Shown: one piece after another, positions 8,269-49,998 of the stretch
Layout of the letters: each line of letters starts with the position of its first letter
How positions within the stretch are numbered: position 1 is the first letter of the stretch
Source of the DNA: a virus
Length of the DNA: 64,000 bases
Reading direction: 5' to 3' (one strand)
Virus record (IMG/VR): IMGVR_UViG_3300009151_000057
Span: 1 to 64,000 of that record
Made by a program: the position numbers and the translations under genes
Notes under the pieces: generated by a model
What the model saw: the letters and a program-made list of their open reading frames with translations, nothing else
Database searches by the model: none
Told to the model about the DNA's origin: nothing

Positions 8269-9045
8269 GTGATTTCCATTTATCATTCAGCTTTTAATTT
8301 AAATAAACATGGATTTGTTGGATGGCAGGACTGCTTAGGCAAGTCCTGCCATTTTGCTGACGAGGTTGTGGTTGCAATAAACACATCGGAAGATGATACG
8401 GAAAACAGTATAAGAAAAATTCTAGCAAAAGAAGCAAAGTCTTATCAGATTATAAATACATCTTTTGATTACAAAGATCCTTGGTTAGATGGCAAAATTA
8501 AAAATGCCGCGTTGCAAAAATGCACACAAGAATTTAAAATTCAATTAGATCTTGACGAGTACATTCCTATTGCACAAAGGAGCTTATGGAATAACTTGTG
8601 TTTTAGATTAAAATTTAATTCTGATATTCAATGCGTCGCTGTACCATCAGTAGATCTTTACAAAGATTTTCAGCATTTTAAATCAATAAATCACAAACAA
8701 TATCTCAATAAAGGCATTGCCTATAGAGCGCCTCAAATTGCCGCTAGAAAATCAGATGGAACCATCAATACATTAATGAGTGATGGCTGTGACCTTGTTG
8801 ATGAAAATGGAAATTTTATTCCTACACAAGGACTAGATAATAGACTAGAAGCATTAGAATCAAATCAAATTCCATTTGTAGTTCATATTGGATACGTTGA
8901 TTTAAATTCTAGATTAAAAAGAAATCATGAATTCTGGAATGAACATTGGTATGTAGAAGGAGGAGGGCAATCTCCAGCTCATAAAATTCACATGGAAGAA
9001 AAAGATTTTGATTATGAAATTTTCGAACACAAATTAAATTTATGA
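8269..9045 (+). CDS. Glycosyltransferase, GT-A/GT2-like
   Basis: A 258-residue protein with a GTG start. Its opening (ISIYHSAFNLNKHGFVGWQD) and DEVVVAINTSEDDT are like GT2 enzymes that begin with a nucleotide-binding strand. The segment QLDLDEYIP provides a DxD-like metal site near residue 95, and a later Trp/His-rich segment (NHEFWNEHWYVEGGG) could hold the catalytic base. Donor and acceptor are unknown. Its stop overlaps the methyltransferase start by 4 bases (ATGA), so the two are translationally coupled. It begins a run of sugar-related genes reaching 13753. Confidence 0.65.
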   Translation: MISIYHSAFNLNKHGFVGWQDCLGKSCHFADEVVVAINTSEDDTENSIRKILAKEAKSYQIINTSFDYKDPWLDGKIKNAALQKCTQEFKIQLDLDEYIPIAQRSLWNNLCFRLKFNSDIQCVAVPSVDLYKDFQHFKSINHKQYLNKGIAYRAPQIAARKSDGTINTLMSDGCDLVDENGNFIPTQGLDNRLEALESNQIPFVVHIGYVDLNSRLKRNHEFWNEHWYVEGGGQSPAHKIHMEEKDFDYEIFEHKLNL

Positions 9046-49037: not shown

Positions 49038-49113
49038 CGCGGGGTCGTCAAGAGGTTAAGACACTAGTCTCATAAGCTAGTATGCGTGGGTTCGAATCCC
49101 ACCCCTGCAACCA
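49038..49113 (+). tRNA. tRNA-Met(CAU), initiator-like
   Basis: Acceptor CGCGGGG 49038-49044 pairs with CCCTGCA 49103-49109 except the first pair, a C1-A72 mismatch; discriminator A, then an encoded CCA. The anticodon loop CTCATAA (anticodon at 49071-49073) is the same as in E. coli tRNA-fMet. The acceptor resembles E. coli tRNA-fMet (CGCGGGG...CCCCGCA). The anticodon stem (CTAGT/GCTAG) lacks the three G-C pairs of initiators, and the D stem has T11-A24 (elongator type). It is a mixed molecule: initiator-like at the acceptor end, elongator-like elsewhere. An isoleucine CAU tRNA is a less likely alternative. Confidence 0.85.
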
Positions 49114-49130
49114 ATTTATTTAGCTAAATA

Positions 49131-49577
49131 ATGGGAAAAAGCTGGAGCGAGCCGCGCTGATCTAGTAGCCCGTTGGGGCAAACGAGGTATTTTTTTCCAA
49201 ACAAGTCGCGGGTAAACTTGTTAGCGAGGATAAGCTCTCGTACAATTTTCTCAGTAACCACAAACCCTCTGGTAGTAGGTTTTGCTGTAATTGGAATGTA
49301 GCAGCATAGAAATCCTGCTGAGAAAGCGACACATGCCTCCCTGCGTAGCGGGGTGCAGGGACTGGGAATACTCAGTCGAAGAGTTGTGTGACTAATCGGA
49401 GAGACGATTAATTGAGTTCCCCCAATTGGGGTGCGACACCTGCCAGTGGCTCCATGCCGCTGGATCTGGTCTACGTTTTGCGTGGGCTGGGTTAGTGGTG
49501 TGACGAATGGAGAGACATCTGTAAAGGCGACACCTGCCAGTCTGACAAAGTGGTGTGACACTGGGAGAGACTAGATT
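49131..49577 (+). ncRNA. Large structured noncoding RNA with three tandem modules
   Basis: No convincing gene lies here, and G+C is clearly higher than in the flanks. Helices seen include ACAAGT/ACTTGT (49201-49221), CAGCA/TGCTG (49302-49320), CCCTGC/GCAGGG (49339-49360) and CCAGTGGC/GCCGCTGG (49444-49464). Three modules follow one plan: GCGACAC-(A/C)-TGCC, a variable middle, then TGTGTGAC or GGTGTGAC whose GTGT pairs back with ACAC, then a short stem closed by a GAGAGA loop. The GAGAGA loops are at about 49399, 49510 and 49565; the GCGACAC boxes at about 49326, 49433 and 49528. Place (phage, next to a tRNA) recalls ornate RNAs such as GOLLD or ROOL, but I cannot assign it to either. Confidence 0.75.
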
Positions 49578-49596
49578 TACTTAAATAAACCAACAT

Positions 49597-49905
49597 ATGA
49601 AAAAAATCCTATTAGTCTTAGCATTATTTACGACAACAACCGTTGGCTTGGTTCTGTCTTCTACAGGTGCTAAAAAAATCAATACAGATAATATTAAAAT
49701 AGATTATAAATCTATTTATATGGAAGACCCAAATGATCCAAAATGCTTGGCTGCTATCTTGTCAGAAGCAAGGCGAGCAACCTCTTCAATCTTGCAAGAA
49801 GGGGATGCGCCAATTTATAAACACTGTCCCAAATGTGAGACAGGGGTGTTTCTTCCAGATAAAGATGATGTAAATCGTTGCACTTTCTGTGGAAGTCAAG
49901 AGTAA
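49597..49905 (+). CDS. Exported or membrane-anchored zinc-ribbon protein
   Basis: A 102-residue protein. MKKILLVLALFTTTTVGLVL is an N-terminal signal or anchor segment. The middle is helical (CLAAILSEARRATSSILQEG). The C-terminus is a zinc ribbon, HCPKCETGVFLPDKDDVN then RCTFCGSQE. The combination implies a zinc-ribbon domain outside the cytoplasmic membrane; its role is unknown. It lies between the structured RNA and tRNA-Tyr. Confidence 0.65.
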   Translation: MKKILLVLALFTTTTVGLVLSSTGAKKINTDNIKIDYKSIYMEDPNDPKCLAAILSEARRATSSILQEGDAPIYKHCPKCETGVFLPDKDDVNRCTFCGSQE

Positions 49906-49912
49906 TTTAAAT

Positions 49913-49995
49913 GGGAGAGTATACCGTTAAGGAGACGGTCCAGACTGTAAATTTGGCGTACTTGTGCTCGGTGGGATCGTTACCCACATCTCCCA
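49913..49995 (+). tRNA. tRNA-Tyr(GUA)
   Basis: Class II tRNA of 83 bases. GGGAGAG 49913-49919 pairs with ATCTCCC 49988-49994 (last pair G-A mismatched). Anticodon stem CCAGA/TTTGG encloses CTGTAAA, anticodon GTA. A long variable arm and discriminator A fit tyrosine. CCA is not encoded. The T-loop (ATCGTTA) differs from the usual TTCGANT. The 3' 25 bases are duplicated at 52196-52220. Confidence 0.8.
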
Positions 49996-49998
49996 CTT
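49974..49998 (+). repeat. 25-bp direct repeat, copy in tRNA-Tyr 3' end
   Basis: Identical to 52196-52220. It covers the T-loop, T-stem and 3' acceptor strand of tRNA-Tyr plus three bases beyond, a common shape for phage and island attachment sites. Confidence 0.9.

Follow-up and report, generated by a model that had tools for sequence, protein, structure and literature searches.

Phage arrays of a widespread, uncatalogued modular RNA, some mixed with an AbiF-type antitoxin RNA, as candidate antitoxin mimics

GOLLD and ROOL are structured phage RNAs that lie near tRNAs, and a region of lactococcal phage sk1, going by the title of a study by Rince in 2000, reportedly protects against AbiF. The closest described systems are RNA antitoxins and their phage-borne counterparts. 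AbiF is a HEPN nuclease silenced by abiF RNA, which works both in cis and in trans via direct binding (PMC12373285); abiF RNA was noted earlier in cyanophage S-CREM1, without a reading as antitoxin mimic (PMC9964418). In phage PhiTE, pseudo-ToxI is a non-coding RNA antitoxin mimic that is present in repeats and evolves as these repeats expand and recombine (PMC3475682). The arrays described here resemble pseudo-ToxI as repeated non-coding RNA of phages, but they combine several kinds of diversified two-hairpin units whose action is putative, whereas pseudo-ToxI is built from one ToxI-like sequence. They also have some parallels with the small self-cleaving ribozymes of phages (hammerhead and others), including a short conserved core, variable stems, intergenic sites and the lack of a gene partner; the modules, in contrast, match no known ribozyme family and form arrays.

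The window analysed here, a 64,000-nucleotide stretch of DNA (positions 1 to 64,000 of IMG/VR record IMGVR_UViG_3300009151_000057), belongs to a phage record of 75,077 bases. Next to a tRNA-Met gene, and on the same strand as the flanking tRNAs, it contains a non-coding stretch (49132–49579) with a G+C content of 51%, compared with 31% in the window (Table 1). An earlier note, made from the letters of the window alone, had pointed to this tRNA-side phage setting, to the raised G+C content and to the lack of a convincing gene, and each of these observations held. The sole long frame of the array stretch, on the minus strand (49124–49561), is interrupted in relatives by stops and by indels of one, two and four bases, and we rejected its reading as a protein-coding gene. 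The note had further described one large RNA made from three copies of a single hairpin module. The three copies are there, with GCGACAC(A/C)TGCC at 49326, 49433 and 49527 and with loop-closing stems (AATCG/CGATT, ATG/CAT and CTGG/CTAG) exactly as quoted, but the remainder of the stretch (49132–49325) consists of other elements, namely D0, D3, a small hairpin and D1. These elements recur in relatives: D0 is conserved in contigs L033, L329 and two more, the D3 stem reads AUAGAG/CUCUAU in L033, and a compensated form of the small hairpin, GCGGGG..CUCCCGU, is seen in L329.

Table 1. Parts of the RNA array in the window and its immediate neighbours
Feature	Coordinates	Strand	Description
tRNA-Met (CAT)	49038–49113	+	immediate upstream neighbour of the array
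Domain D0	49132–49198	+	helix GGGAAAAA/UUUUUUCC around CUGGAGYNAGCCGNRCUGAU...GAGGUAUU
Hairpin D3	49200–49222	+	loop UCGCGGGUAAA; stem AACAAG/CUUGUU
Small hairpin GCGAGGAUAAGCUCUCGU, then T-rich tract	49224–49241	+	terminator-like by simple scan
Domain D1	49249–49324	+	closing helix and two inner hairpins
Module A, copy 1	49326–49413	+	P1 GACACA/UGUGU; two inner hairpins; GAGAGA hairpin 49393–49410
Linker hairpin CCCCAAUUGGGG	49414–49434	+	between module A copies 1 and 2; shares the first two bases of copy 2
Module A, copy 2	49433–49524	+	inner hairpin GGCUCCAUGCC; GAGAGA hairpin ~49506–49519
Module A, copy 3	49527–49579	+	minimal form; GAGAGA hairpin ~49561–49574
Downstream gene	49597–49905	+	102 aa; zinc-ribbon-like C-terminus; outside the RNA

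Module A is a two-hairpin unit running from GCGACAC to the end of the GAGAGA hairpin. Its layout is GCGACAC(C/A)UGCC, inner hairpins spanning 0 to ~90 nt, AGU(G/U)GUGUGAC and a stem closed by GAGAGA. The tail of the module, GTGTGAC-N4/5-GGAGAGAC, occurs at 49386, 49498 and 49553, with zero occurrences expected from shuffles of the window, and a covariance model that included window copy 3 itself found exactly three matches in the window (E values of 2e-14 to 9e-10). In a second form, which we call module B, ACGCC/GGCGU replaces the ACACC/GGUGU of module A and the tail is unchanged.

Across relatives, covariation is strong, bearing out the conserved RNA fold that the earlier note had proposed from stems that differ between copies around an unchanged loop. 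All four loop-proximal pairs of the GAGAGA hairpin are formed in 339 of 426 modules of distinct context, compared with 56 expected when the 3′ halves of the hairpins are shuffled. In 39 short modules, changes on both sides occur at all five pairs of this hairpin, and 54 cells are altered on both sides compared with 15 in shuffles; the swaps extend even to the loop-closing pair in Marinobacter phage PS3, which has C-G in place of G-C. Moreover, the inner hairpins covary, compensatory changes are seen at 12 pairs of the first-copy type of module A among 14 sequences (in helix P1, for example, A-U becomes C-G), and seven pairs of D1 are altered on both sides among 17 sequences. Among modules found by heads near a known tail, the loop is GAGAGA in 176 of 179 and GAGAGU in three, a constancy that partly reflects selection by the search pattern. 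Most contigs retrieved by D1 alone also carry exact module tails. We conclude that the element is almost certainly a conserved, modular and uncatalogued RNA family. That it acts instead at the level of DNA, for example as a cassette-like, shuffled recombination site, is extremely improbable: breakpoints between module types do often fall in GGAGAGAC and leave mismatched stems in some arrays, but the compensatory changes include G-U pairs, the strand of the arrays is biased with that of the genes, and no recombinase family recurs among the neighbours.

The module unit is present in well over 100 viral contigs, and also in plasmids and a few bacterial genomes. The 15-base and 19-base tail patterns and the module B pattern each gave at least 120 matches in viral contigs; for the 15-base pattern, about as many single-match contigs are expected by chance by our own estimate, and we used only those contigs that had a head or several matches. 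Bacterial contigs have 67 places, mainly in Gammaproteobacteria (Marinobacter, Microbulbifer, Sedimenticola and pseudomonadal MAGs), with some in other phyla and a few that consist of the tail only. Pattern matches in Xenorhabdus (L204, L208 and L218) were rejected as module A, as the tail stands alone there and the GCGACAC head is missing. In chromosomes the module is rare: with stricter filters and an even sample of the class, 2 of 369 gammaproteobacterial genomes have it. Two pseudomonadal MAG chromosomes (L283–L290) have 5 and 6 dispersed copies, several of them immediately preceding frames whose small protein products look secreted (MRTPNVGFQVGLAVVAL...). Cultured phages and plasmids carry single copies. 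In Morganella phage IME1369_02, a single GGCGUGAC-type module (L245:4001–4024) precedes the holin gene, and in Pseudomonas phage Itty13 another one (L246:4001–4023) lies ahead of a tRNA-like sequence.

Arrays have up to six units, single units of ~45 nt exist, and there are 42 unit orders among 123 distinct arrays or single units. In many sister arrays, the module is mixed with a further unit, D2. Other recurrent array units read CAUCAACCAUGUGUUGAAGGAG... (contigs L029, L038, L062, L067 and L128), CUUGAGUG...GAGAUUCUUUAA... (L033 and L334) or GUGCAAGCGAAGGAUUUGUAGCAG... (L058, L064, L131 and L136).

This free assembly bears on the resemblance to GOLLD and ROOL that the earlier note had drawn from the phage, tRNA-side setting, while finding their published structure absent. 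A search with the covariance models of Rfam 15 gave no match at gathering score in the window stretch and, over 49110–49610, no match even at E ≤ 5; on this result, we rejected the window array as GOLLD, ROOL or any Rfam family. Open-licence papers, searched at the level of sequence strings and topics, yielded no description of the module RNA. A single architectural RNA with optional domains, forming a GOLLD- or ROOL-like particle, would fit the many helices, the position beside tRNAs in large phages and the recurrence of inner loops such as GGCUCCAUGCC, but we consider it quite improbable. Module arrays differ from these ornate RNAs by their free modular order and by the existence of single units as well as by the lack of a sequence or structure match, and the whole array has no conserved closing helix. 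A 15-nt end-to-end inverted repeat (49115–49129/49575–49589) was considered as such a helix and rejected, as it is not conserved in relatives; in contig L329, its 5′ arm is a local palindrome and its 3′ arm is missing. What the note took for one large structured RNA is probably not one fixed ornate RNA but a set of separate units. Their number and order vary, they occur alone or alongside other units, and their carriers are unrelated phages, plasmids and bacterial elements.

Phage arrays adjoin tRNAs or tmRNA or directly trail a capsid or other gene, and the gene that most often precedes them encodes the major head protein (PF17236, phrog_1328). They typically begin ~10–15 nt past the upstream stop, often end ~8–15 nt before the next start and mostly have the strand of the flanking genes; in Marinobacter phage PS3, where module A is at 8467 of MF959999, a hairpin and T run resembling a terminator come after the module. 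Each of these features would suit a cis-acting element of the transcript, such as a structure that stabilises the 3′ end or serves translation start or antitermination of the flanking genes. We nevertheless regard this role as unlikely, because the neighbours differ in nearly all contigs, arrays also lie between tRNAs, and unit number and order vary freely. In bacterial contigs, no Pfam family is common to more than three of 102 module neighbours, and in phages no PHROG is common to more than two of 61; among these 102 bacterial and 61 phage neighbours, there is also no constant downstream toxin gene for module A. The lack of a protein family recurring beside modules A and B is what would be expected of a trans-acting element.

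The surroundings of the array have some further features. In the window, 49910–49998 resembles tRNA-Tyr (GTA anticodon context, long variable arm) but is called by neither ARAGORN nor Rfam, and clear tRNA-Tyr genes occupy the matching position in contigs L038, L163 and L328. The window also encodes a phage tmRNA (62917–63342), and in L010, L329, L330 and L335 a tmRNA is close behind the array. A DUF1501 gene (PF07394; 50831–52195), unusual in phage, is found just behind the array in relative L163 too.

The most informative unit of the sister arrays is D2 (CCCGCCAAGGC...CCUCAAACCGGCGGGCCACUU), a hairpin that covaries. The Rfam model of abiF RNA (RF03085; AbiFr/RCd22) aligns over its full length to D2 in 12 of 27 phage records at E ≤ 1; the best per-record E value is 3.5e-5 and the top score is 27.5 bits (contig L025), all below the gathering score of 37. 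Because D2 falls below this score, we tried a model built from phage-record copies of D2 only (R2) against bacterial abiF loci. R2 finds an RNA directly upstream of abiF at 6 of 30 gammaproteobacterial Abi_2 loci (E values of 6e-11 to 1.5e-4), and these matches extend into the 3′ flank, ACUU(A)UUUC. Leaders near-identical to phage D2 are found at L300:1341–1398, L302:1329–1386, L311:2165–2231, L313:2187–2244 and L319:2325–2382. D2 shares the hairpin, the internal-loop sequence and the 3′ flank of some gammaproteobacterial abiF leaders. Many other sampled leaders have a different hairpin type, ACCCGCCACGCCUC...GGCGCACC...GGCGGG, and R2 gave no match at 39 Abi_2 loci of three other bacterial classes. 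The Abi_2 gene itself (PF07751) is present in 0 of the 27 phage records. Phage D2 thus differs from the bacterial RNA in being an orphan, mixed with other modules and below the Rfam gathering score, and its identification, from these sequence comparisons, as the AbiF RNA antitoxin without its gene is well supported.

D2 also occurs outside module arrays. It stands alone in other viruses, where it starts 12–17 nt past the stop of a gene, and in Mycobacterium phages, where tRNAs flank it. One separate virus group with this first arrangement (L341, L342, L344, L349, L355, L364, L365 and L366) has one conserved gene ahead of D2, with a C-terminus of RxVxYxPQRP. In Mycobacterium phage Faith1, where D2 is at ~62906 of NC_015584, an orphan abiF-like RNA (L243:2000–2040) lies between gene 105 and tRNA-Pro; it is shared by the Faith1 cluster (L354, L374 and L379), whose tRNA cluster has more structured-looking gaps.

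Module A is another RNA, and the array of the window has no D2. Reading the window array as an AbiF antitoxin was rejected, with neither an RF03085 match in the window record nor an R2 match. At 69 Abi_2 loci from four bacterial classes (30 gammaproteobacterial and 39 other), we found no match to module A, which was accordingly dismissed as an AbiF antitoxin, and none to D1. Module A had no match at AvcD loci either, and was set aside as the AvcI of the AvcID system. The ToxN family (PF13958) was found in 0 of 369 genomes, and likewise in none of the control genomes.

How, then, might the arrays act? The analogy with D2 suggests that they work as decoys. Modules A, B and D1 are designed like D2, as small hairpins whose unpaired bases are nearly invariant and whose stems are free; A and B join D2 in arrays, and D1 stands in for D2. 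Because the sites and design of D2 are common to A, B and D1, which have no gene partners, these three may likewise be trans-acting units, and by the same analogy A and D1 of the window could do the same kind of job as D2. Of several readings, we tentatively prefer that phage arrays are trans-acting RNA decoys, or antitoxin mimics, while giving it somewhat less than an even chance. Precedents for it are pseudo-ToxI, the trans action of the AbiF antitoxin RNA and the sk1 region, and the rarity of the modules in chromosomes, as opposed to phages, plasmids and elements, also speaks for it. In this model, the array would be a set of phage-encoded, separately folding RNA modules acting in trans, with each kind of module copying the RNA that silences one class of RNA-controlled host proteins, either toxins or abortive-infection nucleases. 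The toxin would then stay inhibited once phage takeover halts renewal of the host's own RNA. Different module kinds, and variants with differing inner hairpins, could provide coverage of different toxins or alleles, and recombination could reshuffle the arrays, often inside the common GGAGAGAC. A stronger version, in which A/B and D1 are new natural classes of RNA inhibitor against widely shared bacterial defence proteins and the shuffled arrays are a multi-target arsenal in a large fraction of environmental phages, is possible but rather doubtful.

Alternatively, long phage transcripts could be cleaved at modules A and B, between genes, tRNAs and tmRNA, if these modules are a self-cleaving ribozyme of a new type or some other RNA-processing unit. 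A near-invariant core of ~30 nt with free stem sequence, a very broad spread with no gene partner, and sites between tRNAs, tmRNA and genes would all be compatible with cleavage, and one sister contig that holds both D2 and module A does encode a type II hammerhead ribozyme (L052:11570–11632). That hammerhead, however, sits elsewhere on the contig, and covariance models of known ribozyme families gave no match to the modules. It would, moreover, be unusual for ribozymes to form arrays in which as many as six diverse units carry elaborate inner hairpins, and an antitoxin RNA, D2, shares these arrays. On sequence features, we judge this cleavage role to be about as unlikely as the cis-acting one.

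These results add an RNA family that is uncatalogued, very widespread and clearly covarying. They also show that phages carry AbiF antitoxin RNAs as orphans, several of which lie just downstream of the major capsid gene and are arrayed with other units. Were the modules self-cleaving instead of decoys, they would constitute a new ribozyme class. If the decoy reading is true, the arrays would amount to a list of RNA baits, with one RNA-controlled defence protein for each conserved module. Several of those defence proteins would be new, and RNA counter-defence by phages would be common rather than anecdotal.
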